Source of the DNA: Pedobacter segetis
Lineage (GTDB): Bacteria; Bacteroidota; Bacteroidia; Sphingobacteriales; Sphingobacteriaceae
Length of the DNA: 64,000 nucleotides
NCBI RefSeq assembly: GCF_016623585.1
Contig: NZ_JAEHFY010000016.1
Coordinates: 1 to 64,000 of the forward strand
Direction of reading: 5' to 3'
The notes under the pieces are model-generated. The model did no database searches. It saw only the letters and a program-made list of their open reading frames with translations, and had not been told where the DNA came from. Shown here one piece after another: positions 7,052-39,266 of the stretch. Position 1 is the stretch's first letter. Each line of letters opens with the position of its first letter. The position numbers and the translations under genes are program-made.

Positions 7052-7097
7052 TGTGTCCGAACACAAATAAAAAATATTATATTTGTGTTCGGACACA
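7052..7097 (+). promoter_or_regulatory. Paired operator straddling a -7 box
   Basis: TGTGTCCGAACACA (7052-7065) and TGTGTTCGGACACA (7084-7097) face each other as the arms of a large inverted repeat, extended by AAATA and TATTT. Each 14-mer is also nearly palindromic by itself. A TATATTTG box (7078-7085), matching the Bacteroidota TAnnTTTG -7 element, lies between them and touches the second site. A bound LacI-type dimer on each side would block this promoter. Three further copies of the 14-mer stand before other genes of the locus (13023, 22584, 37222). Confidence 0.75.
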
Positions 7098-7123
7098 TTA
7101 ACCAATTTTAAAATTAAACGTTC

Positions 7124-9049
7124 ATGAACACTATCAGATTAAACCTTCTTGAAGAAACAAGGTTTGAAAAATTGCCAGTAAGCATTTACAAAGACGAAAT
7201 GACTGCGTCTATTAAGGTTGCCAACAGGATTGCGGTTGTAATAAAAGAAAAGGATGCTAAAGGCGAGAAAACAGTTTTAGGGCTTGCAACGGGCGCAACA
7301 CCTGTTAATGTTTATAAAGAGTTAATCCGTTTGCACAAAGAAGAAGGCTTGAGTTTTAAAAAAGTTATCACCTTTAACTTGGATGAATATTATCCGATGA
7401 AACCTGATGCTACCCAAAGTTACGTGGCTTTTATGAAAGAAAATTTGTTTGATCATGTAGATATTGATATGATGAATGTTCATATCCCTAATGGTGAGTT
7501 GGCAGAAGAACAAATTTTTGATTTTTGTGCCAATTATGAGAAGAAGATAACCGCACACGGGGGCTTGGATATACAGATTTTAGGAATTGGCCGTACAGGG
7601 CATATTGGTTTTAACGAACCAGGGTCGGCACCAAATTCTGGAACAAGATTAGTAACCCTTAATGATTTAACCCGCAGGGATGCTTCACGCGATTTTGGAG
7701 GTAAAGAAAATGTACCAAAAAAAGCCATAACAATGGGTGTGGGTACAATTTTTAAAGCTAAACAGATCATTTTGATGGCGTGGAACCAGAAAAAAGCTTC
7801 CATTGTTAAAAAAGCGGTTGAGGGCGGTATCTCTGCCGATGTACCTGCAACTTACTTACAACTATCAGATAATGTGGAGTTCATATTGGATATTGACGCA
7901 GCCTCCAATCTTACCCGTTTCGCTACCCCATGGCTAGTTAAAGATTGCGTTTGGAATAGCGCCATGATTAAAAAAGCGGTAATTTGGTTGGCGAAAACTT
8001 TAAATAAACCTATTTTAAAGTTAACCGAATCTGATTATAACAACAACGGTATGGCGCAATTAGCCACAGAAAAAGGTCCGGTTTACGATATCAATATCGA
8101 TATCTTTAACAAGATACAACATACAATAACGGGTTGGCCCGGTGGCAAGCCTAACTCAGATGATTCGCAACGCCCAGAAAGGTCAGAACCGGCAAAAAAA
8201 CAATCCGTAGTATTTTCTCCACACCCAGATGACGATGTGATTTCTATGGGAGGCACATTCATACGTTTGGCAGATCAAGGGCATAATGTCCATGTAGCTT
8301 ATCAAACATCTGGAAACACTGCAGTTTGGGACGAGGATGCTCTACGCTTTATGGAGTTCAATATCGATTTTTCTAAATCCCAAAACCATAATGCCGCAGA
8401 ATTAGAAAAAATCTATAAGGATACTTGTTCTTTTTTGAGAGGTAAAAAACCCAATCAGCCAGATAATTTAGAATTACGTACTGTTAAAGGTTTGATAAGA
8501 AAAGGAGAAGCCACCGCAGCCGCTAGATTTGCAGGTTTGCCAGATCAAAATATCCATTTTATGGACCTCCCTTTTTACGATAGAGGGAAAACTTCTAAAA
8601 AAGTGGATTTTGAAGACGACATCAAGCAAACCATAGCTCTTTTGCAAGAAATAAGGCCTCATCAGATATTTGCTGCGGGTGATTTTGCCGATCCACATGG
8701 TACGCATAAAGTTTGTTTCAATATTATTTTAGAGGCACTCACTCGTTTAAGAAAAACAGACCCATGGACAAAAGATTGTTGGCTGTGGCTTTACAGAGGT
8801 GCCTGGCATGAGTTTGAAATTGATGAAATTGAAATGGCTGTTCCACTCTCTCCTAATGAGGTTATTAGGAAAAGGCAGGCTATTTTTAAACATCAATCAC
8901 AAAAAGACATTCCTGTTTTCCCCGGCGATGATGCCCGTGAGTTTTGGGTAAGGGCAGAGGATAGGACTAGTGAAACAGCCAGAGCTTATAATAATTTAGG
9001 ATTGGCAGAATACGAAGCTATTGAGGCATTTGTGAGATATAAATTTTAA
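7124..9049 (+). CDS. nagB: Hexosamine-6-phosphate deaminase/isomerase fused to PIG-L deacetylase
   Basis: A two-domain cytoplasmic enzyme of 641 residues. Residues about 15-275 are NagB/SIS-like (GLATGATPVNVY, FNLDEYYPM, GIGRTGHIGFNEPGS), the enzyme that turns hexosamine-6-phosphate into ketose-6-phosphate and ammonia. Residues about 365-620 are a PIG-L/LmbE zinc deacetylase (SPHPDDDVISMGG, later FADPHGTH). The fused form is known from Bacteroidota genomes, where it is usually called NagB-like. In E. coli NagB the segment is GNDGHIAFNEP with catalytic Asp141; here the equivalent residue is Thr (RTGH), while His and Glu are kept, so the exact reaction is open. The fusion would carry out deacetylation and deamination in one protein. 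First gene of an operon behind the double operator. Confidence 0.85.
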   Translation: MNTIRLNLLEETRFEKLPVSIYKDEMTASIKVANRIAVVIKEKDAKGEKTVLGLATGATPVNVYKELIRLHKEEGLSFKKVITFNLDEYYPMKPDATQSYVAFMKENLFDHVDIDMMNVHIPNGELAEEQIFDFCANYEKKITAHGGLDIQILGIGRTGHIGFNEPGSAPNSGTRLVTLNDLTRRDASRDFGGKENVPKKAITMGVGTIFKAKQIILMAWNQKKASIVKKAVEGGISADVPATYLQLSDNVEFILDIDAASNLTRFATPWLVKDCVWNSAMIKKAVIWLAKTLNKPILKLTESDYNNNGMAQLATEKGPVYDINIDIFNKIQHTITGWPGGKPNSDDSQRPERSEPAKKQSVVFSPHPDDDVISMGGTFIRLADQGHNVHVAYQTSGNTAVWDEDALRFMEFNIDFSKSQNHNAAELEKIYKDTCSFLRGKKPNQPDNLELRTVKGLIRKGEATAAARFAGLPDQNIHFMDLPFYDRGKTSKKVDFEDDIKQTIALLQEIRPHQIFAAGDFADPHGTHKVCFNIILEALTRLRKTDPWTKDCWLWLYRGAWHEFEIDEIEMAVPLSPNEVIRKRQAIFKHQSQKDIPVFPGDDAREFWVRAEDRTSETARAYNNLGLAEYEAIEAFVRYKF

Positions 9050-9246
9050 CGACGGCCCAAACTCATTCTAATTCCGATTAATGCTTTAGAAATAGAAGTA
9101 GTATTCGGTTGTTTCTTGTATCAAATATGGAACTGCAAAAAATAATACTGTAAAATTCACAAATGAATATTTTGAAACCCTTTTAAACATCAAAATAATA
9201 ATTGTTAAACAATGATTTTATTATTAGTAAGATTAAAATTAACCAA

Positions 9247-10632
9247 ATGACATTAATTAAATCAATTTCCGGTATCAGGGGAACCATAGGTGGAAAATCT
9301 GGAGAAGGATTAACACCCGTTGACATTGTTAAATTTACCGCTGCTTATGGTAAATGGATATTGTCTAAAACAGGTAATAAAAAAATTGTTTTAGGCAGAG
9401 ACGCTAGGATTTCTGGAGAGATGGTAAGGAATTTAGTGGTTGGTACTTTACAAAGTATAGGAATTGATGTGGTAGATTTAGGTCTTTCTACAACGCCTAC
9501 CGTAGAAATTGCCGTTCCAGATCAAAAAGCAGGAGGTGGTATCATCTTAACAGCAAGTCATAACCCTAAAGAATGGAATGCGTTAAAATTATTAAACCAT
9601 AAGGGTGAATTTATTAATGAAGAAGATGGTAAGGAGGTTTTAACTATTGCAGAGGCTGGAGAATTTGATTTTGAGGAAGTAAATAATTTGGGGAATGTTA
9701 GTTTTGATGATAGTTACCTTCAAAAACATATCGATCAAATTTTATTGCTCCCTTTGGTTGATGCTGTTGCTATTAAGAATGCAAACTTTAAAATAGCTAT
9801 TGATTGTGTAAATTCTTCTGGTGGGGTTTTTATACCCGCATTGTTAAAAGCTTTAGGTGTAGAAACTGTTTATGAGCTTTTTTGTGAGCCTAATGGACAT
9901 TTTCCACATAACCCAGAACCTTTGCCAGAGCATTTAACAGCAATTTCTGATACCGTTAAAGAGCATAAAGCAGATCTAGGCATTGTGGTAGATCCAGATG
10001 TTGACCGCCTTTGTTTTGTTTGTGAAGATGGGACGATGTTTGGCGAAGAATATACATTGGTTGCGGTTGCAGATTATGTTTTAAAACATAATCCTGGTAA
10101 TACCGTATCAAATCTATCATCTACAAGAGCTTTAAGAGATGTTACAGAAGCTGCCGATCAAGTTTACAATGCCTCTGCCGTTGGAGAAGTAAACGTAGTA
10201 AACCTGATGAAAAGTACAGGTTCTGTTATAGGTGGGGAAGGAAACGGAGGTGTTATTTATCCAGAATTGCATTACGGGCGAGATGCTTTAGTGGGTATTG
10301 CTCTTTTCTTAACTCATTTGGCCAAATCAGAAAAAAAGATTTCAACGCTTAAAGCGAGCTATCCAATGTACTTTATTTCAAAAAATAAAATCAACCTAAA
10401 AAAAGGGATGGATGTGGATGACATCCTTCAAAAAGTAAAGGATAAACATAAAACCAAGCCACATAGTACCATAGATGGATTAAAGATAGAATTTGAAAAG
10501 CAATGGGTGCATTTGAGAAAATCAAATACCGAACCCATCATCAGGGTCTATTCTGAATCAACATCTGAAGCAGGGGCGAATAAACTAGCAAACAACATCA
10601 TGAACGATATTATCTCTTTTATCCAAAAGTAA
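9247..10632 (+). CDS. glmM: Phosphoglucosamine mutase-type phosphohexosamine mutase
   Basis: This alpha-D-phosphohexomutase interconverts hexosamine-1-phosphate and hexosamine-6-phosphate in the cytoplasm. Starting at ATG 9247 (MTLIKSISGIRGTIGG) gives 461 residues, the usual family length; a TTG at 9202 would add an unlikely tail. The phosphoserine loop is TASHNP (Ser104), the metal loop DPDVDR, and the sugar loop GGEGNGG. In this operon its likely job is catabolic, moving the phosphate put on C1 by the kinase encoded next door to C6 for the NagB/PIG-L fusion, though it could also serve cell-wall synthesis. It lies seven bases before the kinase gene. Confidence 0.85.
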   Translation: MTLIKSISGIRGTIGGKSGEGLTPVDIVKFTAAYGKWILSKTGNKKIVLGRDARISGEMVRNLVVGTLQSIGIDVVDLGLSTTPTVEIAVPDQKAGGGIILTASHNPKEWNALKLLNHKGEFINEEDGKEVLTIAEAGEFDFEEVNNLGNVSFDDSYLQKHIDQILLLPLVDAVAIKNANFKIAIDCVNSSGGVFIPALLKALGVETVYELFCEPNGHFPHNPEPLPEHLTAISDTVKEHKADLGIVVDPDVDRLCFVCEDGTMFGEEYTLVAVADYVLKHNPGNTVSNLSSTRALRDVTEAADQVYNASAVGEVNVVNLMKSTGSVIGGEGNGGVIYPELHYGRDALVGIALFLTHLAKSEKKISTLKASYPMYFISKNKINLKKGMDVDDILQKVKDKHKTKPHSTIDGLKIEFEKQWVHLRKSNTEPIIRVYSESTSEAGANKLANNIMNDIISFIQK

Positions 10633-10639
10633 CATAGAT

Positions 10640-11770
10640 ATGGAAAACACAACATTCCAGAAAAACAAAATTGAACACCTTGCCAAAAAGTTTGCTATTG
10701 AGGGAGATGTTCTAACTACAAAACCTTTTGGTTCGGGGCATATCAATGATACTTTTTTTATTCAAAATATTGATAAAAGTTGCCCAGATTATCTTTTACA
10801 ACGTATTAACCATCATATTTTTAAAGATGTTGAAGGGGTTGTGGTAAATATTTCTAGGGTTTCTGCACATTTAGGGGCTAAGTTAAATGGAGAATTTAAG
10901 ACCGATAAATCTTTTGAACAAGTACTCACACTAATCCCCACAACCGAGGGTGTTTTATTTCTTGAAGATGATGATGGAAATTTTTGGAGAATGTACCAAT
11001 TTATAAAAGATTCTATCAGCTATGATTTAATTACATCTAGCAAGCAGGCCTATGAAGGTGGCGAAGCTTTTGGTCGCTTTCAGCGGATGTTGGCCGATAT
11101 GGATCCGAATTTATTAAAAGAGACACTAAAAGATTTCCATAACATTAAATTTAGATTAGCAAATTTTTATAACGCAGTAACAGAAAATTGCGCCGGGAGG
11201 GTAAATGAAGTTAATGAAGAACTTGCATTGATTGAGCAACATAAAGATTTTATGTGCAGCCTTTATGAAATGGGAGAAAAAGGTTTGTTACCTAAAAGAA
11301 TTACCCATAACGATACAAAATTTAACAACATATTGTTTGATAAGAACGATAAAGTAATCTGTATCATTGATCTAGATACCGTAATGCCTGGTTATGTTGC
11401 TTATGATTTTGGTGATGCCATTAGAACCTTAGCAAATACCGCAGAAGAAGACGAAGCCAATTTGAATAAAATTGATGTGAATATTTCTTTATTTAAAGCT
11501 TATACAGAAGGTTATTTAAAAGAAGCTTTGGTTTTTTTAACAGATGATGAAATAAAATCTTTGTACTTAGCTGTGTTTCTTTTCCCTTTTATGCAAGCAA
11601 TCCGTTTCTTGACAGATTATTTGCAAGGAGATACTTATTATAAAATTGCCTATCCATCCCATAATTTGGTACGCACAAAAGCACAGTTCCAATTGTTCAA
11701 GAAGCTTTATGCAAAAAAAGAAGAATTAGAAAAAATCATTAACGATGCGAAGAATAATGTTTTAGTTTAG
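10640..11770 (+). CDS. NahK-like N-acetylhexosamine 1-kinase (APH fold)
   Basis: A 376-residue phosphotransferase of the aminoglycoside phosphotransferase fold. The N-terminal lobe has PFGSGHINDTFF and LLQRINHHIF. The catalytic loop is ITHNDTKFNNILFD, with Asp as base and Asn for metal, followed by the DFG-like IIDLDTVMPG. These match the NahK/AmgK-type kinases that phosphorylate GlcNAc or GalNAc at C1 with ATP. Together with the mutase and the deacetylase/deaminase fusion it gives a route from free N-acetylhexosamine to the 6-phosphate without NagK or PTS. Substrate choice (GalNAc, GlcNAc or both) cannot be read from the sequence. The gene closes the three-gene operon. Confidence 0.75.
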   Translation: MENTTFQKNKIEHLAKKFAIEGDVLTTKPFGSGHINDTFFIQNIDKSCPDYLLQRINHHIFKDVEGVVVNISRVSAHLGAKLNGEFKTDKSFEQVLTLIPTTEGVLFLEDDDGNFWRMYQFIKDSISYDLITSSKQAYEGGEAFGRFQRMLADMDPNLLKETLKDFHNIKFRLANFYNAVTENCAGRVNEVNEELALIEQHKDFMCSLYEMGEKGLLPKRITHNDTKFNNILFDKNDKVICIIDLDTVMPGYVAYDFGDAIRTLANTAEEDEANLNKIDVNISLFKAYTEGYLKEALVFLTDDEIKSLYLAVFLFPFMQAIRFLTDYLQGDTYYKIAYPSHNLVRTKAQFQLFKKLYAKKEELEKIINDAKNNVLV

Positions 11771-11893: not shown

Positions 11894-12967
11894 ATGAATG
11901 ATAAAACTATCACTATAAAGGATATCGCTTTAAAAGCTAAGGTAAGTGCGGGCACAGTTGATCGTGTTTTACATAAGAGGGGTAAAGTTGCCCCCAAAGT
12001 AGAGGAAAAAATACTCCGTATCTTAAAAGAAATGGAGTATGAGCCAAATATTATTGCTAGAGCCTTAAGTTCTAAAAAAAAGTATAAAGTTGCGGTTTTA
12101 ATTCCTGATGAATCTTATGACAGTTATTGGTTTGCGCCCAAGGCAGGCATAAAAAAATCTTTAAAAGAACTTAAGCAATTTGGCCTAGAGGTTAAATTTT
12201 ACTTTTTTGATCCCTACACAGCTTCATCTTTTGTAGATAAAGCAAAAGAAGTTAGTTTAGATAACCCCGATGGGATTATTTTAACCCCTATTTTTCATAG
12301 GGAAGTACTTCCATTTTTTGAGAGTTGGAAAAAATCCGAAATCCCATTTGTATTGTTCAATACAGAAATATCAGATTTTGAGCCACTAAGTTATATTGGT
12401 CAAGATTCTTATCAAAGTGGTTATCTAGCCGGTAAGTTGATCCATTATGGCCTATCAGAACCTTGTACAATTCTGTTGGCGCATTTTGACGAAGAAACTT
12501 CAAATGCTGCGCATCTAGAGAAAAAAGAATTGGGTTTCAAAAATTATTTTAGCCAGAACAATTTACAACAATATGATATCTTAAAAGCAGAAATTACGAG
12601 ACCAAATTATGCGTCTTTTGTTGGCCAAATGGATAACATTTTTGAAAACAATCCAAACATAAAAGGTGTTTTCGTAACCACCTCTAAATCTTTTGAAATA
12701 GCCAGTTATTTAAACCAGAAACATATACATGATGTAAATATTATAGGATATGATCTTCTGGCAAAAAATTTACACTACCTAAAAAATAATACCATTAGTT
12801 TTTTAATTAATCAAAACCCTAAAGGACAAGGGTTTTGGAGTTTAAAGCTTTTAACCGATAAGCTTATTTTTAATAAAGAAGTTCCTTTATTAAAATATCT
12901 TCCATTAGATATTATTACCAAAGAAAACGTTAATTACTTTATTGAGGAGGATTTGGAGAGCGCCTAG
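11894..12967 (+). CDS. LacI-family transcriptional regulator
   Basis: A 357-residue LacI/GalR-type repressor. Residues 5-55 are the helix-turn-helix and hinge (TIKDIALKAKVSAGTVDRVLHKRG, then PNIIARALSSKKK), and the rest is a periplasmic-binding-protein fold (VAVLIPD, GIILTPIF, YIGQDSYQSGYLAGKL) that should bind a sugar or sugar phosphate. It lies 124 bases after the kinase gene and upstream of the sigma factor, in the middle of the genes that carry the TGTGTNCGAACACA operators. LacI proteins bind palindromes with a central CG, as seen here, so it is the best candidate for the operator-binding protein. Its own upstream region shows no copy of the site. Confidence 0.85.
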   Translation: MNDKTITIKDIALKAKVSAGTVDRVLHKRGKVAPKVEEKILRILKEMEYEPNIIARALSSKKKYKVAVLIPDESYDSYWFAPKAGIKKSLKELKQFGLEVKFYFFDPYTASSFVDKAKEVSLDNPDGIILTPIFHREVLPFFESWKKSEIPFVLFNTEISDFEPLSYIGQDSYQSGYLAGKLIHYGLSEPCTILLAHFDEETSNAAHLEKKELGFKNYFSQNNLQQYDILKAEITRPNYASFVGQMDNIFENNPNIKGVFVTTSKSFEIASYLNQKHIHDVNIIGYDLLAKNLHYLKNNTISFLINQNPKGQGFWSLKLLTDKLIFNKEVPLLKYLPLDIITKENVNYFIEEDLESA

Positions 12968-13178: not shown

Positions 13179-13730
13179 ATGCCAATATATCAAGATTTTA
13201 ACGATGCTGAATTGACTGCTTTACTAAAAGAAGGGGATAGGGACGCATTTACAGAAATCTATAATAGATACCATTGGTTATTGCATATTCATACTTATAA
13301 ATGGATTAGAAATAGAGAAGAAGCAAAAGATATTATTCACGAACTTTTCTCTACCATATGGATGAAACATGACCAGCTTTCATTTGGCCCTAACCTTTCT
13401 ACTTATTTATACGCCGCAGTAAGGAACAGAATCTTTAATCTTCTATCGCATAAAAAAATTGAATCGGCATATATTGTTTCTCTGGGTAGTTTTATTGAAA
13501 AAGGAGAGTGTGTAACCGATCACTTAGTTAGAGAAAGCCAATTATCTAAAGTTATTGAAAAGCAAATTGCAGCAATGCCCTTAAAAATGCGCCATGTTTT
13601 TGAACTGAGCAGAAAACAAAATTACAGTCATAAAAAGATAGCTTATGAGCTTGATATTTCTGAACAAACCGTCCGTAAGCATATACAACACGCATTAAAA
13701 GTTTTAAGGTTTAAATTGGGCATTTTTTAG
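13179..13730 (+). CDS. ECF-type RNA polymerase sigma factor
   Basis: A 183-residue sigma-70 family factor of the ECF group that accompanies FecR and SusC in Bacteroidota. Region 2 is at residues 20-90 (FTEIYNRYHWLLHIHTYKW, EEAKDIIHELFSTIW) and region 4 at 125-180 (MPLKMRHVFELSRKQNYSHK, then a helix-turn-helix with ISEQTVRKHIQHAL). It should direct transcription of the SusC/SusD operon when released by the FecR-like anti-sigma factor. An operator copy lies upstream, so its level is probably under the LacI-type regulator as well. Followed after 169 bases by the anti-sigma gene. Confidence 0.9.
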   Translation: MPIYQDFNDAELTALLKEGDRDAFTEIYNRYHWLLHIHTYKWIRNREEAKDIIHELFSTIWMKHDQLSFGPNLSTYLYAAVRNRIFNLLSHKKIESAYIVSLGSFIEKGECVTDHLVRESQLSKVIEKQIAAMPLKMRHVFELSRKQNYSHKKIAYELDISEQTVRKHIQHALKVLRFKLGIF

Positions 13731-15036: not shown

Positions 15037-15205
15037 TTAAACTAAACTAACCCAAATCATGAAAAAACAAGAAATCGAAGAAAGCCCTTAACCTAGAAAA
15101 TAAAAAAACTGAAATCTTGGCGGCAACCAAAATTCCAGTTAAAACTCAGGTTATCGAAAAAATTTGTCTCAAAAAACTAAATATTTACGAATTAAACCCA
15201 TTCAA

Positions 15206-28984: not shown

Positions 28985-29353
28985 GCTGAAAATGACAGCT
29001 ATCACTTAAGTGCTGTTTTCAAACATGATACTTTAAATTTAAAGGGGGCACTAAAGTCAAAGTTTGAAGATTTTTATATTAAAATCTTTAATACCGAAAT
29101 AAAAGAAGGCGTTAAGTATCATCTTGATGATTCACAAAATTCTTATGCTTATTATTTAACAAATCAAAACTGCTTTAGTGACGTTTCTGGTTATGGTGTA
29201 GGCTCCGCTAAATCCTTAGATGGTCAGGTTATTTTCACTAAAGTTGACAACATAAAAAAAATCTTATCCGGCACCTTCTGGTTTAATATACCTACCGACA
29301 AATGTGGGGAATTGAAGATTACCAACGGTCGTTTCGATATCAGATATTATTAA
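28805..29353 (+). CDS. Small lipoprotein, second of a tandem pair
   Basis: A 182-residue paralogue of the preceding protein with the same leader, lipobox (TTGMKCKKEN) and ANVFACKVNGENWI block. The centre has diverged (YHLSAVFKHDTLNLKGALKS), while the C-terminal half again runs parallel (GYGVGSAKSLDGQVIFTKVD, ILSGTFWFNIPTDKC, RFDIRYY). It lies 27 bases after the first copy and 26 before the T9SS hydrolase gene. Surface location is expected; function unknown. Confidence 0.6.
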   Translation: MKTQKLKFQKSIFFLLILSFLLTTGMKCKKENNLDPDGLPKATQTGANVFACKVNGENWIAENDSYHLSAVFKHDTLNLKGALKSKFEDFYIKIFNTEIKEGVKYHLDDSQNSYAYYLTNQNCFSDVSGYGVGSAKSLDGQVIFTKVDNIKKILSGTFWFNIPTDKCGELKITNGRFDIRYY

Positions 29354-29379
29354 TGTCAGAAAAACTAAAACCTCACATC

Positions 29380-32300: not shown

Positions 32301-32493
32301 AGAAAAACTGAGCACTTCCTCAAAAGAGATTTTTTTATACAACGAAAAAGGCGAAGTGCTCAAATCTGCTTTTATTAAAAATAATGAAGGAGAAGCAGTC
32401 CTGGATGTAAAAGATGTCCCTAATGGCACCTATTATCTCCATATAAAGAATGATAAAGACATTATTAAAAAGCAAGTTATCATCAAGCATTAA
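29380..32493 (+). CDS. T9SS-secreted alpha/beta hydrolase (lipase/esterase-like)
   Basis: A 1,037-residue protein starting at ATG 29380 with a leader ending TLRAQD. A hydrolase domain lies around residues 290-480: the nucleophile elbow is VVMGLSMGGLVARYA (G-x-S-x-G), preceded by IVAEGFDPDNGYSFDSY and followed by ISHDTPYWGANVP, as in PGAP1-like lipases. Residues 770-880 form an Ig-like/PKD-like stretch. The end (RFAIYPNPADTQLTIVDG to KKQVIIKH) is a full T9SS type A sorting domain. In this locus it might remove acetyl or other esters from the polymer, but that is a guess. It is followed by the GH36-like gene after four bases. Confidence 0.7.
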   Translation: MKKIYLLLAGLLLFSSTLRAQDTTSYYGKMNYIYAHIDKNQISSGILRDYGIDFLNLDNFAGTTLNDSNYVSLDEWRMLYASLYSAQINTASMLYLDTLNNLLKNNSYSNQPIAFTALYYQYQSLKDNALTANLFTVSNDQLYDVPGRTQSPYQDNDLFAVAPIRQGMLTGNNQLIFKPELIFGNTGKTISAIAVDIDSSGNWQNVTLNSPFNISFSTEGFYPIAIRFTFTDNSIKYAHTKIAVYPNPEALDTLNSGGLQTNSFSPYRTLSNEDITADKSYLGVAGQGDITIQLALNNSTGQIRKPLIVAEGFDPDNGYSFDSYVRSITVNDNTNSQITLNQGLDDINDYDLIFLNYKNGADYIQRNAFLLEKAIAIVNSRKTTYNGVRQSNVVMGLSMGGLVARYALRDMEINNVAHETRLFISHDTPYWGANVPVGAQIAVQHLSPFKIVNTDGNFPYIKWVDLFQGTAESLATFNTPAAKQLLIQRYLLNPANYTLTSDNTVHDAFMNELNTMGWPANCKNITISNGSCDGTPIYPNNSRIFELIGGKSIKYLDNLWLSAAFTIGAPFSPIVIFGGNTNPLAFLVQLPLGLLSTKSSINLDFRINSVPQSGTAELYRGDIYSKRKILGIINVNTYFIKTHINSTSGMLPLDNAPGGVYDINEFGFDANVIQNSLPDFFNGIQATVLQPRFCFVPTVSSLALSNPQQSLFANICNNINCIKPSIISASYVPQQNQLHISYTQESSNFLLEWQNANYNCAQVCSSNLSIQGFPQICNASETYTVPGLPAGVTVNWSISPTSGVASLSTSGNTATLTKTGNGTVSLTANIVTPCATFSKYRIIQSGTSSFDLGFALSGATIINNTDPYFIDLKASGALQMTFNAHNISVQLLAIGSIVPHASGNAFTWLYPNTPSYDGVTVRVQYNSLSCGTPITRYFRFFNSNYVNRFAIYPNPADTQLTIVDGQFDAKALKEEKLSTSSKEIFLYNEKGEVLKSAFIKNNEGEAVLDVKDVPNGTYYLHIKNDKDIIKKQVIIKH

Positions 32494-32497
32494 AACT

Positions 32498-34522
32498 ATG
32501 AAAAGAACAACCCTTTTATTTTCCATCATCTTCACTCTCCTAGCAAACCTAAATAGCTCCGCTCAAGTTTTTCTAGCGGGTAAAAACCCAGGAATTGCAA
32601 GTATTAATATCAAAAAAAGTGACAAGCTTATCCAATTAAAAAACAAAACTTTACAGGCAGATTTTACCATTATCAATGGAACCTTAGCTGCTCTGGATTT
32701 TAAAAATAAAGAGCAATCGTCCTCAAAAATTGATTTTAAAGATCAAGCCTTGTTCGAGTTTGTTTTAAAGGATAAGAGCAGAATAAAATCTACTACGTTT
32801 AAAGTACAAGGAGAGCCTATTATTAAAGATATTTCTGCAGATCCTGCTGCCCAAAAACTAGCTGATAGGTTTGCAGGAAAGAGCATCACTTTAAATTTAA
32901 TAGAAGAGAAAGCAAACATTAGCGTAAAATGGACGGTGAGTTTGCGTGATAATGCAAATTATATACGTCAGAATTTTAGCATCAACAGCCCAAATCCGGT
33001 AATGGCAAAAAGGGTAATATTGCTCAATTTACCCGCAAACCCAAATATTAAAGAAACAAGCAGGGTAGATGGTTCTCCACTGGCGGGGGAACAACTGTTT
33101 TTCGCTATCGAGCATCCGATGAGCCAGATAGATAGTGCCGCAAAAAACATTTCTTGTTTTTTACCAAGATTAGAAGCTTTAAACAACGGGGTTTTAGATG
33201 TTTCTGTAGCTTGGGGTGTTTACCCCAAAGACCAAGAACGCCGAGCTTATCTATATTATATAGAAAGAGAGAGGGCAGCACCTTATCATCAGCTGTTGCA
33301 CTACAATTCTTGGTACGATTTATCGTGGAGCGATAGAAAAATGGAAGAAGGTAGTTCTTTAGACCGCATCCAAACTTATGCAGATAGCTTAATTACCAAA
33401 AGAAATACGCCAATGGATGCTTTTCTTTTTGATGATGGCTGGGACGATAACCAAAGCTTATGGAAATTTAATAAGAATTTCCCTCAAGGGTTTGATAACT
33501 TGGCAAAGTTAGCTGCCAAATACAATGCACACCTGGGCGTGTGGATGTCGCCCTGGGGTGGTTATGACGAGGCAAAAGTGCAACGTTTAAAATACGGGAT
33601 GGCGCAAAACCCACCTTTTAAAACCAACGAAAACGGTTTCTCTTTAACCGGAAAAAGTTATTACGAAAGGTTTAAAGCCGTTACCAGCGAGTTTGTTACT
33701 AAAAACGGCATCAAGATTTTTAAGTTTGATGGGGTTGGTGCAGGCAACGGAGCAGATGGAGCGAGCTTAAAATATCAAGCTGATATTGAAGCTTTTGTAA
33801 AATTGATAGAATCATTAAGAAAGCTAGATCCTAAGCTATACATCAGCATGACGGTGGGCACTTGGCCTTCGCCTTATTGGTTAAAGATTGGTGACAACAT
33901 TTGGAGAGCCGGCGATGATACCGGATTGGATGGCGAAGGAACGGTTCGTCAAAAATTGATCAACTATCGTGATGCGCAAATCCATAAGAACATTGTGGTT
34001 AGGGCACCGCTATATCCTTTAAATGCGCTCATGAGCCATGGCATTTGTATCGCTAACAATGGCATACCGGGTACGGTAAAAAATAACGATAAAGAGATTG
34101 CAGATGAAATCTGGTCGTTTTTTGGTAGCGGCACCAGTTTACAAGAACTTTATGTTAACCCACATTTGTTAAACAGTAATAATTGGGATCAACTGGCAAA
34201 AGCAATTGCTTGGTCCAGAAAAAATGCTACTGTTTTGGCTGATGTACATTGGGTAGGTGGCAACCCTGCAAAACAAGAAGTTTATGGCTTTGCATCTTGG
34301 AACCCTCAAAAAGCTACTTTAAGTTTAAGAAACCCGTCAGATCAAACGCAAACCTTTAAGGTAAATGTTCGTGATGTTTTGCAGATACCCACAAAGTTTA
34401 AAAGCAATTACATTTTTAAAGATGCCAAAGAAAATGGCGATAAGGTAGCAAATGGCGAAGAATTTACCATAACACTTGCCCCATTTGAAGTAAAAGTAAT
34501 GGATGGATATTTAACTAAGTAA
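32498..34522 (+). CDS. GH36-like (clan GH-D) exo-glycosidase
   Basis: A 674-residue exported enzyme (start at ATG 32498, leader ending NSSAQ). The N-terminal 250 residues form a beta-sandwich. The barrel contains FLFDDGWDD, HLGVWMSPWGGY and the nucleophile segment IFKFDGVG (Asp411), with the likely acid/base in WRAGDDTG (Asp473/474). This is the layout of clan GH-D, which holds alpha-galactosidases and alpha-N-acetylgalactosaminidases. With GH109 and GH114 next to it, an alpha-galactosidase or alpha-GalNAc-ase acting on a mixed galactose/galactosamine polymer is the natural reading. Exact specificity cannot be decided here. Confidence 0.7.
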   Translation: MKRTTLLFSIIFTLLANLNSSAQVFLAGKNPGIASINIKKSDKLIQLKNKTLQADFTIINGTLAALDFKNKEQSSSKIDFKDQALFEFVLKDKSRIKSTTFKVQGEPIIKDISADPAAQKLADRFAGKSITLNLIEEKANISVKWTVSLRDNANYIRQNFSINSPNPVMAKRVILLNLPANPNIKETSRVDGSPLAGEQLFFAIEHPMSQIDSAAKNISCFLPRLEALNNGVLDVSVAWGVYPKDQERRAYLYYIERERAAPYHQLLHYNSWYDLSWSDRKMEEGSSLDRIQTYADSLITKRNTPMDAFLFDDGWDDNQSLWKFNKNFPQGFDNLAKLAAKYNAHLGVWMSPWGGYDEAKVQRLKYGMAQNPPFKTNENGFSLTGKSYYERFKAVTSEFVTKNGIKIFKFDGVGAGNGADGASLKYQADIEAFVKLIESLRKLDPKLYISMTVGTWPSPYWLKIGDNIWRAGDDTGLDGEGTVRQKLINYRDAQIHKNIVVRAPLYPLNALMSHGICIANNGIPGTVKNNDKEIADEIWSFFGSGTSLQELYVNPHLLNSNNWDQLAKAIAWSRKNATVLADVHWVGGNPAKQEVYGFASWNPQKATLSLRNPSDQTQTFKVNVRDVLQIPTKFKSNYIFKDAKENGDKVANGEEFTITLAPFEVKVMDGYLTK

Positions 34523-34637
34523 TCATTATCCCGTCTCATGCCGATGATAGGAGACATCTCATCAAAACAAGTATATCGCAACTGCAAATGAGATTCCTCT
34601 TACCTCGAAATGACGATAAACAAAAACTGAAATAAAA
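34523..34637. repeat. Interspersed repeat-like element between genes
   Basis: The 115-base gap has ends that pair imperfectly (CGTCTCATGCCGA on the left, TCGAAATGACG on the right) and internal GATAGGAGACATCTCATC and GAGATTCCTC pieces. Text of this kind is scattered through many Bacteroidota genomes as small inverted-repeat elements. Confirmation needs other copies in the genome. Confidence 0.4.
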
Positions 34638-35984
34638 ATGAGAAGAAGAGAATTTATAGGCACAGGACTAACTGCTGCTGCAATAAGCATGTTACCTACA
34701 GAAAATTTATTTGCATTGGTTAGCGAGAAAGTAAAAGTAGCCATTATAGGGGTAGGGCTAAGGGGGCAAAACCATTTAAACCTACTTTTAAAAAGAGACG
34801 ATGTTGATTTAGTGGCTATTTGTGATGTGGACGATCGTATGCTAGAAATGGCAAAAGCAGATATCAACAAAGCAGGTAAACCAATGCCCAGAATTTTTAA
34901 AGGTAGCAACCAAGCTTGGAAAGATATGTTGAATACCAAAGGTTTACAAGCGGTAATTATCGCCACACCTTGGGAATGGCATAAACCCATGATTATTGGT
35001 TCTTTAGAAGCCGGACTTAGGTATGTAGGTACAGAGGTAATATTGGGTATATCCCTTCAAGATCATTGGGATGTAGTTAAAGCAGCAGAGAAGTACAACG
35101 CAAATGTGATGATGCTAGAAAATGTTTGCTATCGCCGTGATGTAATGGCGGTTTTGAACATGACTAGGCAAAATGTTTTTGGTGAGCTTACACATTTACA
35201 AGGCGGCTATCAGCATGATTTGAGGGAAGTAAAGTTTAACGATGGCGTACATCCTTATGGGCATGGTGTAGAATTTGGGCCAAAAGCTTTTTCTGAAGCC
35301 CGTTGGCGTACCAACCATTCTGTACACCGCAATGGCGATCTATATCCTACACATGGTGTTGGTCCAATTGCACATTATATAAACATCAACAGAGGGAACA
35401 GATTCACAAAACTCAACTCATTTTCTACAAAGTCGCGTAGTTTACATAAGTACATTGTAGATCAGGCCGGCGAAGATCATCCTAATGCAAAAGTAAAATT
35501 TGCTTTGGGCGATATTGTGACCACTTCTATTGCCTGTGCCAATGGCGAAACCATTATTTTACAACATGATACCAATTCGCCTCGCCCTTATTCTTTGGGT
35601 TTTAGGGTGCAGGGTACAAACGGACTTTGGATGGATGTTAACAACAGTATTTATGTAGATGGCAAAAGCAGCCCTGATGCTTGGGATAGCGCAGATGAAT
35701 GGTTAACTAAATATGATCATCCTCTCTGGAAAAAATATGCCGAAGATGCCGAAGGTGCCGGCCACGGTGGGATGGATTTCTTTGTGGTACATGCTTTTAT
35801 TGAAGCTGCCAAACGAGGCGAAAAAACACCAATGGACGTTTATGATGCCGCAACATGGAGTGCCATTACGCCCTTAAGTGAACAATCGGTAGAGCTTGGC
35901 TTTGCCACTGTTGACTTCCCTGATTTTACAGGAGGCGCATGGATGAACCGCAAACCAATTTTTGCTTTAAATGATGATTATTGA
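34638..35984 (+). CDS. GH109 alpha-N-acetylgalactosaminidase
   Basis: A 448-residue NAD-dependent glycosidase of the Gfo/Idh/MocA fold, GH109, which cleaves terminal alpha-GalNAc. A Tat-type leader (MRRREFIGTGLTAAAISML) fits export of a folded, cofactor-loaded protein. The Rossmann start is VAIIGVGLRGQNH, followed by ICDVDDRM, TPWEWH and the family-typical YPTHGVGPIAHYININRGNR, then EDAEGAGHGGMDFF and WSAITPLSEQSV near the end. These match the Elizabethkingia blood-group A enzyme group well. It would remove N-acetylated GalN ends in the periplasm and needs the acetyl group, which connects it to the acetyltransferase of this locus. Confidence 0.88.
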   Translation: MRRREFIGTGLTAAAISMLPTENLFALVSEKVKVAIIGVGLRGQNHLNLLLKRDDVDLVAICDVDDRMLEMAKADINKAGKPMPRIFKGSNQAWKDMLNTKGLQAVIIATPWEWHKPMIIGSLEAGLRYVGTEVILGISLQDHWDVVKAAEKYNANVMMLENVCYRRDVMAVLNMTRQNVFGELTHLQGGYQHDLREVKFNDGVHPYGHGVEFGPKAFSEARWRTNHSVHRNGDLYPTHGVGPIAHYININRGNRFTKLNSFSTKSRSLHKYIVDQAGEDHPNAKVKFALGDIVTTSIACANGETIILQHDTNSPRPYSLGFRVQGTNGLWMDVNNSIYVDGKSSPDAWDSADEWLTKYDHPLWKKYAEDAEGAGHGGMDFFVVHAFIEAAKRGEKTPMDVYDAATWSAITPLSEQSVELGFATVDFPDFTGGAWMNRKPIFALNDDY

Positions 35985-35994
35985 TTGGAAAGAT

Positions 35995-36110
35995 AATTAG
36001 GGGCTTCCCCCGCAGAAAAAGCGGGGTCGGGCTTTTCACTGTACACCGTTTGCCTGCCTTGGGGCTGGCAATCCGGGGTGCCGTTACAATCCCTAATCCA
36101 AAACTCATCA
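35995..36110. repeat. GC-rich interspersed element with hairpins
   Basis: The gap after the GH109 gene is clearly richer in G+C than its surroundings. CCCCGC (36008-36013) and GCGGGG (36021-36026) form a hairpin, followed by GTCGGGCTTTTCACTGTACA and by TGCC...GGCA and CCGGGG pieces. The text resembles the repeated extragenic elements of Pedobacter-like genomes. Other copies would prove it. Confidence 0.45.
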
Positions 36111-36150
36111 TTGTTAAACAACAAATTTTAAAATAATAAAACCATAGGTT

Positions 36151-37149
36151 ATGAAAAATTATACCTTAATGCTCATCATATTTCTGCTTTCTGTTTCTTG
36201 TAAAAACGGAGATAGTGCCAAGCTAAACCTAATGAATAACCCACCACCGACAGGCAGAGATTTTAAACAAGATATGAGGGATTTTGTGATCGGTATCAGC
36301 AAATATGCTAAAGCAGAAAATAAAAATTTCGCAATTGTGCCTCAAAATGGGATAGAATTAGTTACAGCAAACGGAGACAGTCAAGCACCTCCGTCAACTA
36401 CTTATTTAGACGCAATTGACGCTAACGGCCAAGAAGATTTATTATATGGTTATGATAATGATGACCAAGCCACACCAACAGCAACGGTTACTTACCTCAA
36501 AAGTTTGTTAAATATTTCTAAAAATGCAGGTAAAAAAATCTTCGTGACAGATTATTGCTCCGCAGTTTCTAAAATGAGCAATTCTTATGCAAAAAACAAA
36601 GAAGCGGGCTATATCTCTTTCGCCGCAAACCAAAGGGACCTTAACAATATCCCAAGCTTTCCAAACCCAATTTATCAGGCAAACGGCAATAACATCAGTA
36701 ATATTAATGAAGCTCAAAACTTTTTATACCTCATCAATCCTGATAAGTTTAGCTCAAAATCACAATTTATAGATGCTGTAAAAGCTACCAATTACGATTT
36801 GATTATTATGGATCTGTTTTTTAACGATAAAGCGTTTACCTCAGCAGAAATTGCCCAATTAAAAACCAAAGCCAACGGCGGTAAAAGACTGGTAATTTCC
36901 TATATGTCCATCGGCGAAGCAGAAGATTACCGATACTATTGGAAAACTGACTGGAAAAAAAACAAGCCCCTTTGGCTTGATTCAGAAAACCCCAATTGGA
37001 AAGGAAATTATAAAGTACACTATTGGGAAAACGATTGGCAGAAAATTATTTATGGAAACAGCACTTCTTACCTACAAAAAATATTGGATGCCAATTTTGA
37101 CGGCGTTTATTTAGATATTATAGATGGGTTTGAATATTATGAACATTAA
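36151..37149 (+). CDS. GH114 endo-alpha-1,4-polygalactosaminidase-type lipoprotein
   Basis: A 332-residue lipoprotein (lipobox SVSCKNG). It shows the GH114/TM1410 barrel: FVIGISKYAKAENKNF, LLYGYDNDD, KIFVTDYC, YDLIIMDLFF, RLVISYMSIGEAEDYRYYW and, at the end, FDGVYLDIIDGFEYY. GH114 enzymes cut alpha-1,4-linked galactosamine polymers, fungal galactosaminogalactan being the known example. The full core is present with the acidic residues after strands. It is the strongest pointer to the substrate of this locus. It stands after a repeat element and before an operator, so it may be the last gene of the preceding transcript. Confidence 0.85.
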   Translation: MKNYTLMLIIFLLSVSCKNGDSAKLNLMNNPPPTGRDFKQDMRDFVIGISKYAKAENKNFAIVPQNGIELVTANGDSQAPPSTTYLDAIDANGQEDLLYGYDNDDQATPTATVTYLKSLLNISKNAGKKIFVTDYCSAVSKMSNSYAKNKEAGYISFAANQRDLNNIPSFPNPIYQANGNNISNINEAQNFLYLINPDKFSSKSQFIDAVKATNYDLIIMDLFFNDKAFTSAEIAQLKTKANGGKRLVISYMSIGEAEDYRYYWKTDWKKNKPLWLDSENPNWKGNYKVHYWENDWQKIIYGNSTSYLQKILDANFDGVYLDIIDGFEYYEH

Positions 37150-37221
37150 ACTAAGCCTTAATTTAATAAAATGTGATCAGCAAACATTTTACTGTTATTA
37201 TAGAATTATTTTCTAAATTAG

Positions 37222-37235
37222 TGTTTCCGAACACA
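37222..37235. promoter_or_regulatory. Operator copy before the CBM9-like/MFS pair
   Basis: TGTTTCCGAACACA has one change from TGTGTNCGAACACA and is followed by TTTAT. A TAAATTAG box (37214-37221), seven of eight to TAnnTTTG counting free positions, abuts it on the left, the same arrangement as at 7078-7097. The downstream gene begins 48 bases later. Confidence 0.6.
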
Positions 37236-37283
37236 TTTATTAAATTGAAAGAATAATTAGACCTTTTGCCCTAGAAATATTAA

Positions 37284-37913
37284 ATGAATAAGCCCATTTT
37301 AATACCCTATATTTTGCCAAACAGCTTCACTGATAAAAAAGTAGAGGCCAACATTTCATATGCTATAAACAGCAATGCTTGGGATTATAAATTTGCCGGA
37401 AAAGCCAATTTTGAAATAGCCTATACAGACGATGCCTTGTTGGTAAAATTTGACGTAATAGAAGAAAACATACTTGCAATATATAACCAACCAAATGATC
37501 CGGTATATAAAGATTCTTGTGTAGAATTATTTATAGCATTAGATAACGATCAAGCATACTATAACTTCGAGTTTAATTGCAAGGGCACCTGCTTGGCGGG
37601 TTTTGGCGAATCTAAAGAAAACAGAAAATTGTTGGATGCAAAAAATATCAGAAATATTAGAGCAAACTCTAGCTTTAAATCTGTGATTTTTGAAGATAAA
37701 AAAATGATCAAATGGGAGTTACAGTTAGAGATCCCTAAATCTGTTTTTCAGTTTCATCAAATAGAATCATTTAAAAGAAGGGCAGCAAGACTTAATTTAT
37801 ATAAGTGTGGCGATGATTTACCAGAGCCTCATTTTTTAAGTTGGAGACCCATTAAATCAGAGACACCTAATTTCCATTTGCCAGAGTTTTTTGGTAACGC
37901 CGTTTTCGAATAA
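37284..37913 (+). CDS. CBM9-like carbohydrate-binding protein
   Basis: A 209-residue protein without a clear leader, so probably cytoplasmic unless the start lies elsewhere. It matches the CBM9/DOMON-like sugar-binding family: NAWDYKFAGKANFEIAYTD, LLVKFDV, VYKDSCVELFIALDN, YYNFEFNCKG and LSWRPIKSETPNFHLPEFFG near the end. Proteins of this kind are frequent next to sugar transporters in Bacteroidota. It is the first gene behind an operator copy, followed after 28 bases by the transporter. Role unknown; binding of an amino sugar or oligosaccharide is plausible. Confidence 0.7.
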   Translation: MNKPILIPYILPNSFTDKKVEANISYAINSNAWDYKFAGKANFEIAYTDDALLVKFDVIEENILAIYNQPNDPVYKDSCVELFIALDNDQAYYNFEFNCKGTCLAGFGESKENRKLLDAKNIRNIRANSSFKSVIFEDKKMIKWELQLEIPKSVFQFHQIESFKRRAARLNLYKCGDDLPEPHFLSWRPIKSETPNFHLPEFFGNAVFE

Positions 37914-37941
37914 ATAATTGTAAAAAACCAATCCTAAATAT

Positions 37942-39222
37942 ATGTCAAATTCAAACTCTTTATCTGCCTCAATGCAAAAAAAAGGCATAAACCCAGTAAT
38001 CATTATTGGTGCACTCTTCTTTGTTTTTGGTTTTGTAACGTGGCTTAACGGTACATTAATCCCTTTTTTACAGTTAGCTTGCGAGTTAAGCACATCCCAG
38101 GCCTTACTGGTAACTTTTGCATTTTACATGGCCTACTTTTTTCTTGCCATCCCTTCATCATACATCTTAAAACTAACAGGATTTAAAAACGGGATGTCTT
38201 TGGGTTTATTTGTGATGGCAATTGGCGCATTGATATTTATACCAGCCGCAAATATGAGGACCTTTCCGTTATTTCTGTTAGGCTTATTTATACAAGGTAT
38301 GGGTTTGGCCTTATTGCAAACGGCTTCAAACCCCTATATCACCATTGTTGGGCCAATAGAAAGTGCCGCTAAACGCATCAGCATTATGGGTATCTGCAAT
38401 AAATTGGCAGGTGCTTTAAGCCCAATTATATTAAGTGCGCTGGTGTTAAAAGGCGCACAAGCTATAGAGGATCAAGCAAAAATCATTACCGATTCCGTAA
38501 AAAAAGAAGCTTTGTTGAATGCTTTGGCGCAAAGGGTAATAACGCCCTACATTATTATAGCCTTGGTGTTAACCATATTGGCTTTGGTAATAAAATACTC
38601 TTCTTTACCAGAAATTGATACCGATAAAGACCATGTTGGGGATGATGGAAATGTGGTAGCACCAAAATCTAGTGTGTTCAAATATAGCAACCTAAATTTA
38701 GGCGTAATCTGTCTTTTTTTATACGTGGGCGTAGAGGTAATGGCGGGCGATGTGATCGGTACTTATGGCAAATCTTTGGGGATGAGCCTAGATCAGACAA
38801 AAATTTTCACATCCTATACCCTGGTATCCATGGTAATCGGCTATATCATTGGCATCATCTGTATCCCAAAATACATCAAACAAGAAAAAGCATTAATGCT
38901 ATCGGCAATAGTGGGTGTTTTATTTACGGTCGGTGCATTTTTAACAACGGGTTATATCAGCGTAATGTTTATCGCACTCTTAGGTTTGGCAAACTCTTTA
39001 ATGTGGCCGGCAATATTCCCTTTAGCTATCAAGGGCTTAGGGAAATACACCAAATTTGGATCCGCATTATTAGTTATGGGAATAGCCGGGGGAGCAGTAT
39101 TACCGCAGATTTACGCAGCCCTGGCCATTAACATAGGTTCACAAACAGCATTTTTATGTAGTATGGTTCCTTGCTATCTATACATATTGTTTTACGCGGT
39201 TAAAGGTCACAAAACAAATTAG
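37942..39222 (+). CDS. Sugar MFS transporter of the FucP/GluP/NagP group
   Basis: A 426-residue permease with twelve predicted helices. The N-terminus (ALFFVFGFVTWLNGTLIPFL) and LLQTASNPYITIVGP are signatures of the fucose/glucose/N-acetylglucosamine proton symporters, and VGVEVMAGDVIGTYG opens the second half. It should carry the free N-acetylhexosamine released in the periplasm into the cell, where the kinase encoded at 10640-11770 acts. It shares a transcript with the CBM9-like gene under an operator copy, and a hairpin follows at 39235. Confidence 0.88.
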   Translation: MSNSNSLSASMQKKGINPVIIIGALFFVFGFVTWLNGTLIPFLQLACELSTSQALLVTFAFYMAYFFLAIPSSYILKLTGFKNGMSLGLFVMAIGALIFIPAANMRTFPLFLLGLFIQGMGLALLQTASNPYITIVGPIESAAKRISIMGICNKLAGALSPIILSALVLKGAQAIEDQAKIITDSVKKEALLNALAQRVITPYIIIALVLTILALVIKYSSLPEIDTDKDHVGDDGNVVAPKSSVFKYSNLNLGVICLFLYVGVEVMAGDVIGTYGKSLGMSLDQTKIFTSYTLVSMVIGYIIGIICIPKYIKQEKALMLSAIVGVLFTVGAFLTTGYISVMFIALLGLANSLMWPAIFPLAIKGLGKYTKFGSALLVMGIAGGAVLPQIYAALAINIGSQTAFLCSMVPCYLYILFYAVKGHKTN

Positions 39223-39234
39223 AGGAATAATAAT

Positions 39235-39266
39235 GGCTAACATAATTTCGCAAAATTGTGTTAGCC
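39235..39266. terminator. Hairpin between convergent transcripts
   Basis: GGCTAACATAATTT (39235-39248), loop CGCA, AAATTGTGTTAGCC (39253-39266) form a 14-bp stem with a single T-G pair. It lies between the transporter gene and the oppositely oriented exopolysaccharide cluster, where a shared terminator is expected, although no long T-run follows. Confidence 0.55.

Follow-up and report, generated by a model that had tools for sequence, protein, structure and literature searches.

Pel and galactosaminogalactan hold together biofilms formed by Pseudomonas, streptococci and Aspergillus. In bifidobacteria, N-acetylgalactosamine (GalNAc) is salvaged by NahK, GalT and GalE via GalNAc-1-phosphate and UDP-GalNAc to UDP-N-acetylglucosamine (UDP-GlcNAc), and enzymes of glycoside hydrolase (GH) family GH109 are best known for acting on terminal alpha-GalNAc. 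Endo-galactosaminidases are scarce, with two or fewer characterised per family (PMC12054363). In this study, we analysed the first 64,000 nucleotides of a contig of Pedobacter segetis (C7:1-64000, hereafter the window), whose genome comprises 3.84 Mb in 72 contigs. The window contains a locus that spans 7124–39222 and has all its genes on the + strand. We lean towards regarding it as a polysaccharide utilisation locus (PUL) for an alpha-linked glycan of GalNAc and galactosamine (GalN), possibly with galactose (Gal), resembling Pel or galactosaminogalactan.

Several described systems resemble parts of this locus. SIR_1591 from Streptococcus intermedius, a TIM barrel with a DUF4832 domain encoded beside pel genes, disrupts Pel-dependent aggregates as PelA does, and the Streptococcus polymer was judged to be GalNAc-rich (PMC12345266). 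The pel genes of gram-positive streptococci and clostridia are adjoined by DUF4832 genes (PMC7112168). Env-GH191 cleaves Pel with a preference for GalN-rich parts (PMC12054363). Fitness data tie NagX to the use of glucosamine (GlcN) in five bacteria, and on that basis the enzyme was proposed to acetylate the amino group of periplasmic GlcN using cytoplasmic acetyl-CoA (PMC9007349). Among the papers listed in searches on DUF4874/DUF4832, galactosaminogalactan, polygalactosaminidase, GH191 and Pel (titles, abstract openings and some passages), none described a utilisation locus of the present kind. An earlier reading of the window from its letters alone (the sequence-only reading) knew of no described PUL with this gene set, which agrees with that literature as judged by titles and abstract openings.

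Organization of the locus and its conserved core

Gene families were called with Pfam, NCBIfam, PDB sequence searches, AlphaFold2 (AF2) models and Foldseek; the gene identities, the recurrence of the set, the permutation described below and the conserved catalytic residues come from such sequence comparisons or models. The parts named by the sequence-only reading (a SusC/SusD pair with ECF/FecR control, GH114, GH109 and GH36-like enzymes, two DUF4874/DUF4832 proteins, a membrane acetyltransferase, a sugar permease, and a cytoplasmic kinase, mutase and deacetylase/deaminase set) are all present on the + strand by Pfam, NCBIfam or fold model, and every gene of the locus given below lies on that strand. 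The SusC-type TonB-dependent receptor with an STN domain (15164–18715) and the SusD-type glycan-binding protein (18739–20205), both identified with Pfam, are encoded by adjacent genes, as is expected of a SusC/SusD-type locus. The same block holds GH109, GH191-type and GH36-fold proteins together with ECF/FecR and LacI regulators.

Related loci were collected with the GH36-like protein as the query (80 of 143 relatives were kept) and searched with 22 window proteins. Their 926 open reading frames (ORFs) were clustered, and neighbours were counted in those 74 loci whose GH36-like ORF fell into a cluster (six were dropped), 32 of which are Bacteroidota by title. These counts are taken over kindred loci and do not represent independent events. 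Near the GH36-like gene, NahK was found in 20 loci (within 5 kb), NagX in 14, DUF4832, LacI and PKD/CBM9-like proteins in 12 each, NagB/PIG-L and CBM9_2 in 11 each, GlmM and GalE in 10 each, and GH31 in 8. GH109-like (5) and GH123 (4) genes were rarer, and the permuted GH191 gene was found in none. At the score of the window-protein search, GH109-like proteins were detected in 4 of the 80 loci, three of them at 55–56% identity. A scan of 69 other same-strand neighbours matched 112 families, of which the 25 commonest were listed.

As read from the sequences, the conserved core is SusC/SusD, DUF4874/DUF4832, CBM9-like, NagX-like, GH36-like, NahK, GlmM and NagB/PIG-L, to which some relatives add GalE, a GH31 alpha-galactosidase or GH109. 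In a locus of Pararcticibacter amylolyticus FJ4-8 (L071), SusC-SusD-DUF4832a-PKD/CBM9-DUF4832b-NagX-GH36 follow one another uninterrupted by further called ORFs, and in Mucilaginibacter sp. UR6-11 (L094) the order is LacI-CBM9-NagX-DUF4832-GalE-GH36-NahK-NagB/PIG-L-GlmM-NahK-SusC-SusD. The window SusD is matched over its whole length at 69% identity in L071, and L086, L087 and L105 each have a 70% identical match that covers 0.9 of SusC. Loci with Verrucomicrobia titles (L113 and L131) and Acidobacteria titles (L145 and L149) also have NahK within 5 kb of the GH36-like gene. The same holds for NagX in L115–L117 (Pedosphaera, Verrucomicrobiia and unclassified).

A second draw of 251 family genomes, which may overlap the genomes of the related loci, gave 12 genomes in which the GH36-like protein is matched at 46% or higher identity. 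In nine of them, including the window's genome, DUF4874 shares the contig of this match and is no more than about 18 kb away; it is on another contig in G220 and absent from G089 and G233. Neither DUF4874 nor the GH36-like protein was found in any of the 17 other same-genus genomes of this draw; therefore, the locus was either gained here or lost in the others. A search for the gene set in related genomes, as the sequence-only reading had suggested, thus recovered the core in Mucilaginibacter and other genera, so that it is not unique to the window, whereas the GH114-like gene was recovered in 0 of the 80 loci.

Some related loci carry further genes beside the core. In two loci with Acidobacteria titles, a nucleotidyltransferase-type gene (L145 11604–12809 and L149 5616–6527; tested with Pfam in L149 only) lies between the GH36-like gene and NahK, which suggests salvage of N-acetylhexosamine-1-phosphate to the UDP-sugar. 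In four Mucilaginibacter loci (L077, L078, L079 and L081), a two-domain SGNH/GDSL esterase directly follows the GH36-like gene, and a GH123-cluster gene is found further on in three of them; the two genes hint at an O-acetylated variant of the substrate. In loci with Bacteroidales titles (L099 4117–8138, also L098 and L101), a pair of large proteins is encoded between PKD/CBM9 and GH31/GH36-like, one of 687 aa without a Pfam match (in L099) and one of about 650 aa with a weak GHL10 match.

Putative endo-acting hydrolases

Two DUF4874/DUF4832 proteins, copy a (20245–21612) and copy b (25474–26970), are proposed to be endo-acting hydrolases. Both match PF16116 (DUF4832) in Pfam with E-values of 6e-63 and 2e-52, respectively, and they share 35% identity. 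Invariant acidic residues were noted in copy a, and E184 and E310 of copy b are invariant in 15 of 15 sequences. Searched by sequence against the PDB, copy b gave no match up to E 10. Its AF2 model (predicted local distance difference test score, pLDDT, 82.4) comprises a TIM-like barrel and a beta-sandwich, with the DUF4832 domain placed on the barrel, and its best Foldseek matches are GH14 beta-amylases (E 8.9e-9). The best structural matches of SIR_1591 include beta-amylases as well (PMC12345266). Copy b and SIR_1591 are likened here by domain and fold, not by sequence. They differ in their settings: SIR_1591 is encoded beside polymer synthesis genes, whereas the window has two copies in a SusC/SusD locus.

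The protein encoded at 36151–37149, with a lipoprotein-like N-terminus by reading, matches only half of the profile PF03537 ('GH114'; 58.6 bits, cut-off 27) and falls just under TIGR01370 (178.6 against 181.25). Its match to the Env-GH191 structure (9ep5) is non-collinear: residues 206–328 correspond to 49–161 of 9ep5, and residues 36–159 to 173–284 (block i-Evalues 1.2e-9 and 2.3e-8). Against TM1410 (2aam), the second block by itself is weak (i-Evalue 4.5). When the C-terminal half was moved to the front, one stretch (26–281) matched 49–284 of 9ep5 with an E-value of 1.3e-24 (2.9e-21 unrotated), and the match to TM1410 (2aam_A) improved from 2e-27 to 8.7e-33. Because the rotated sequence gives one collinear match in place of two reversed blocks, the alignments show, at the sequence level, a circular permutant of the GH191-type (TM1410/Env-GH191) barrel. 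Its order along the chain differs from that of the family, with the acid/base half first and the nucleophile half last. GH114 proper was rejected as an assignment, because among solved structures the protein is best matched by those of GH191, with the order permuted.

In the alignment of the unrotated protein, D322 and E95 correspond to Asp156 and Glu225, the putative nucleophile and putative acid/base of TmGH191 (PMC12054363). Both residues are invariant in 16 of 16 aligned permuted proteins, a selection from those found. The catalytic residues are thus kept, with D322 as the predicted nucleophile and E95 as the predicted acid/base, and endo-alpha-1,4-galactosaminidase activity is predicted. 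The protein is similar to TmGH191/TM1410 and Env-GH191 in its sequence match over most of the barrel, in both catalytic residues and in the family of substrates. In contrast to them, it is permuted, and its activity is a prediction. The wording 'permut' was not found in the available text of PMC12054363, which cites Naumoff and Stepuschenko 2011.

A frameshift or truncation was ruled out as the source of the half Pfam match by the near full-length collinear form found elsewhere. The permuted form is not an artefact, because 23 other genomes of a phylum draw (345 genomes) and six other genomes of an order draw (350 genomes; near full length) share it collinearly. Among three further matching genomes of the order draw, one carries the gene divided between two frames and two carry fragments of it, and five further genomes of the phylum draw have partial matches, including a strong match of residues 207–330 only in G421. 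The gene occurs as two adjacent frames in L164/L167, both from one genome (G180:C1:4483128-4483987).

The sequence-only reading had made this gene, as GH114, a key piece of the locus. This role is not borne out: the permuted GH191 gene is absent from all 80 related loci (many ended by contig ends), and it is therefore not a diagnostic part and was ruled out as a hallmark. The gene stands among unrelated genes in the four genome contexts read (L011, L012, L169 and L170). Of the 251 family genomes, 34 have DUF4874 and three show the match to half of the profile by which the permuted form is recognised (a fourth, G180, came from the order draw), and the two occur together only in the window's genome. 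Unpermuted full-length PF03537 proteins occur in four family genomes (G082, G101, G170 and G200); in G082, G170 and G200, DUF4874 is present too, but either on a different contig or at a distance of more than 150 kb. In G188, DUF4874 and a sub-cut-off PF03537 match are on separate contigs. These distributions give real weight to the possibility, to which we nevertheless assign less than an even chance, that the gene is an orphan that came to lie here by chance, serving remodelling of the cell's own matrix or dispersal and standing outside the utilisation locus. This possibility is compatible with the other explanations discussed below. Against it, the gene is flanked by GH109 and CBM9_2/MFS, all on one strand, and the activity expected of it would suit the locus. 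Of the 74 counted loci, 11 have CBM9_2, and the major facilitator superfamily (MFS) permease is present in 5 of 80 (three of them cut by the locus edge). Because the gene sits between GH109 and these two recurrent genes, we read it as having been recruited into the locus.

Predicted exo-acting enzymes

The GH36-like protein is a candidate exo-alpha-glycosidase acting on alpha-Gal, alpha-GalNAc or alpha-GalN. Its ORF spans 32450–34522; the gene reported by the sequence-only reading is present, although the start given there (32498) is an internal Met. The AF2 model (pLDDT 93.3) has as its best Foldseek match the GH36 alpha-galactosidase 2xn0 (E 2.3e-27, TMq 0.62), and an alpha-galactosaminidase from Flavonifractor occupies ranks 21–23. 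By sequence, the protein has no GH36 Pfam match, one sub-cut-off GH31 barrel match (E 0.0093) and weak matches to GH36 sequences in the PDB (E 0.15–0.61). Among 45 sequences, D307, G309, W310, K404, D406, W464, R465 and D469 are invariant and D308 is nearly so (numbering starts at window position 32513). The conserved DDGW and KxD motifs, assigned by sequence reading, resemble the residues listed for the Flavonifractor enzyme (PMC11762096). The protein is thus like GH36 alpha-galactosidases and this alpha-galactosaminidase in its predicted fold and motifs, and unlike GH36 alpha-galactosidases in having no Pfam GH36 match and only 9–14% identity to the listed GH36 structures. The model indicates a GH36 fold, and GH36 membership is assigned by fold and motifs, not by a sequence profile.

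The adjacent gene (34638–35984) encodes a GH109 alpha-N-acetylgalactosaminidase (PF21252, 3.8e-89), which matches the solved alpha-N-acetylgalactosaminidase 2ixa_A over its whole length (residues 22–448, E 4e-155). The GH31 protein of the relatives, tested for one representative, scores 669 bits against a solved GH31 alpha-galactosidase.

Proposed transport, re-acetylation and cytoplasmic catabolism

The locus begins with a 641-aa fusion of a NagB-like deaminase and a PIG-L-type de-N-acetylase (7124–9049; NF002557, 1029 bits; Glucosamine_iso and PIG-L in Pfam), proposed to act as both GlcNAc-6-phosphate deacetylase and GlcN-6-phosphate deaminase; no NagA over the cut-off was found in the window's genome. 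It is followed by a GlmM-type phosphohexosamine mutase of the PGM/PMM type (9202–10632; TIGR03990, 520.8 bits, cut-off 439) and an APH-type, NahK-type N-acetylhexosamine 1-kinase (10640–11770), which matches the solved NahK structures 4wh1/4ocj over its whole length (residues 13–370, E 1.8e-72). A GalE-type copy, 66% identical to the GalE of the relatives, is on another contig of the genome, and a GalT-type gene is also present. PF01704 gave no match in this genome, but the control likewise matched nowhere, which leaves this negative without weight. For the GalE of the relatives, the best matches of one representative are UDP-glucose 4-epimerases (E 1.4e-98), and the presence of GalE in their loci points to a galacto-configured sugar. 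Compared with the bifidobacterial salvage pathway, the locus has a related kinase and, in some relatives, GalE nearby; it differs in adding the GlmM-type mutase, the NagB/PIG-L fusion and the SusC/SusD pair.

A NagX-like (HGSNAT-related) transmembrane amino-sugar N-acetyltransferase is encoded at 26970–28088 (NCBIfam NF046061; no Pfam match at E 0.01). It is like the NagX glucosamine transacetylase (PMC9007349) and human HGSNAT in belonging to a transmembrane acetyltransferase family with an invariant His in an H-x-x-W-x-G motif: His57 is invariant in 9 of 9 aligned sequences and, judged from the motif and not from a direct alignment, is the putative counterpart of the acetyl-carrying His72 in Shewanella. 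The protein differs from NagX in its score, which is 120 bits where the equivalog cut-off is 480, and in having neighbours that point to galactosamine. The NagP/FucP-type MFS sugar permease (37942–39222) passes TIGR01272 (340.6 bits, cut-off 202.55) and matches NF046060 at 421.6 bits, under the cut-off of 625.

The names NagX, NagP, NagB and GlmM refer to GlcNAc/GlcN, and NagX is common in chitin operons (PMC9007349), as would be expected if the substrate were a chitosan- or peptidoglycan-like GlcNAc/GlcN glycan with the alpha-galacto enzymes as accessories. We consider this improbable, and chitin or chitosan is not favoured as the substrate: none of the Pfam matches in the window locus is to a chitinase, chitosanase, GH20 or lysozyme-type family, and GalE inside the relatives' loci, the GH31 alpha-galactosidase, GH109 and the GH36 fold are all galacto-configured.

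Proposed substrate and pathway

An alpha-linked GalNAc/GalN glycan, with or without Gal, is favoured because of the activity of a DUF4832 protein on Pel-dependent aggregates, the GH109 enzyme, the galacto-type fold of the exo-enzyme, the alpha-galactosidase neighbours and GalE. The class of substrate put forward by the sequence-only reading, an alpha-linked galacto-configured amino sugar, is therefore supported, mainly by evidence beyond that reading: the effect of a DUF4832 protein on Pel aggregates, the NahK, GalE, GlmM and NagB/PIG-L neighbours, the GH31 neighbours (one representative tested) and the proximity of GH109 to a solved alpha-N-acetylgalactosaminidase. The specific polymer is not told apart by this evidence.

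We infer the substrate, the order of the steps, the locations of the enzymes and the action of NagX on galactosamine as follows. The chain would be cut internally by the two DUF4874/DUF4832 barrels, assisted in the window strain by the permuted GH191 protein, and the fragments would be bound and imported by the SusC/SusD pair and the CBM9-like proteins. In the periplasm, the NagX-like protein may N-acetylate terminal or free galactosamine with cytoplasmic acetyl-CoA. Such re-acetylation would let GH109, which removes alpha-GalNAc, finish residues that arrive deacetylated, and the GH36-like enzyme would remove the remaining terminal alpha-galacto residues. GalNAc would then enter via the MFS permease and be phosphorylated at C1 by the NahK-type kinase. 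Conversion to the gluco series could proceed via UDP-sugars, using the GalT- and GalE-type genes elsewhere in the genome (GalE is inside the locus in some relatives), and the GlmM-type mutase, followed by the PIG-L/NagB fusion, would convert GlcNAc-1-phosphate onwards to fructose-6-phosphate.

A broader proposal, which we advance tentatively and regard as rather doubtful, is that such loci represent a system, widespread in Bacteroidota, which handles cationic galactosamine polymers much as lysosomes break down heparan sulfate. In such a system, NagX/HGSNAT-type acetyl-capping would prepare deacetylated GalN ends for exo-enzymes such as GH109, DUF4874/DUF4832 would be an undescribed endo-alpha-galactosaminidase family of uptake loci, and the permuted GH191 would be recruited in some strains. 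If the assignment of the locus to a polymer of this type is right, Bacteroidota of this group hold whole pathways and new enzymes (DUF4832, GH36-like and permuted GH191), NagX would have a part in polymer breakdown by way of acetyl-capping, and the fate of galactosamine polymers in nature would become testable.

Several observations, together with the distribution of the permuted gene given above, weigh against the assignment to a galactosamine polymer. NahK, NagX, NagP, NagB and GlmM types also serve GlcNAc/GlcN, and the scores of the NagX-like protein and the permease lie under the cut-offs of NF046061 and NF046060. The GH36-like gene is present in Planctomycetes-titled loci without any other window homologue in the stretches compared. 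TmGH191 was inactive on galactosaminogalactan oligomers (PMC12054363), and the activity of DUF4832 in Streptococcus was demonstrated via aggregate disruption (PMC12345266). A DUF4874-DUF4832-dockerin protein is among the cellulosomal proteins of a rumen lignocellulose consortium (PMC7480376); therefore, the pair of domains need not mean galactosamine. A DUF4832 protein is also found in a capsule-type cluster of Klebsiella (PMC6258164). Some related loci carry GH20, GH84-type NAGidase, GH123, GH43 or GH92 genes. Given the genes shared with GlcNAc use, the other GH families in relatives, DUF4832 elsewhere, the lone GH36-like gene and the inactivity of TmGH191, the polymer is unproven.

The two other settings of DUF4832, the GH123, GH20, GH84-type and GH31 genes near the GH36-like gene in some relatives, and a GH109 that matches 2ixa and belongs to a family best known for terminal alpha-GalNAc would also suit alpha-GalNAc- or alpha-Gal-capped glycoconjugates (O-glycans, glycolipids, blood-group-like or bacterial capsular repeats) or another glycan, with DUF4832 acting on a different chain. 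We judge this unlikely, though to be taken seriously. The window locus has no Pfam match to a fucosidase, sialidase, sulfatase or beta-galactosidase (three of its proteins have no family or sub-cut-off matches only), NagX would imply a free amino group, and the one tested DUF4832 enzyme met in the literature acts on Pel-dependent aggregates (PMC12345266).

Other genes of the locus and its surroundings

The regulators, all identified with Pfam, are a LacI-family protein (11894–12967), an ECF (extracytoplasmic function) sigma factor (13179–13730) and a FecR-type anti-sigma factor (13900–15036). Between the two DUF4874/DUF4832 genes lie a PKD and CBM9-like protein (21650–22507), a proposed glycan-binding lipoprotein with PKD assigned by Pfam and the CBM9-like part by sequence reading only; a CBM9-like secreted protein (22627–23778), assigned by reading only, with no Pfam match and a sub-cut-off Por_Secre_tail as a weak type IX sorting tail; and a right-handed beta-helix protein (23867–25453, Pfam) with a homologue in 2 of the 80 related loci. 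The NagX-like and GH36-like genes are separated by a block (28226–32493) that is not present at that place in L071. Pfam identified in it two tandem and similar DUF6252 proteins (28226–28777 and 28805–29353) and a 1063-aa protein (29302–32493) with a type IX sorting tail and a weak PGAP1-like match. The CBM9_2 family protein (37284–37913; PF16011, 1.3e-57) precedes the permease.

The locus ends at a terminator-like hairpin of 14 pairs (39235–39266, +), whose 3' end coincides with the end at 39266 assigned by the sequence-only reading. Seven terminator-like sites were found in 36000–40400, compared with 3.8 (standard deviation 2.3) in shuffles; the six others listed have 5–7 pairs each. No RNA family reached its gathering score in 6000–40400, and no tRNA gene was found within the window.

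Beyond the hairpin, a convergent exopolysaccharide synthesis cluster occupies 39395–49857 on the minus strand. It encodes by Pfam a DUF1574-like protein, an MBOAT protein, two GT4 and one GT2 glycosyltransferases, a protein of the O-antigen-ligase/Wzy type, a protein of 732 aa and one of the outer-membrane efflux type. As this cluster immediately adjoins the locus, recycling of the cell's own exopolysaccharide was considered. It is very improbable: the cluster is of the Wzy type with an MBOAT protein and has no Pel-like gene by Pfam.

Just upstream of the locus, at 4668–5884, an HTH/DUF6922 protein and an AbiEii nucleotidyltransferase form a type IV toxin-antitoxin-like pair. At 50268–55854, a large Big_9/cadherin-type protein with a CHU_C sorting domain, PorP/SprF and an OmpA/PD40 protein constitute a type IX secretion-related set.

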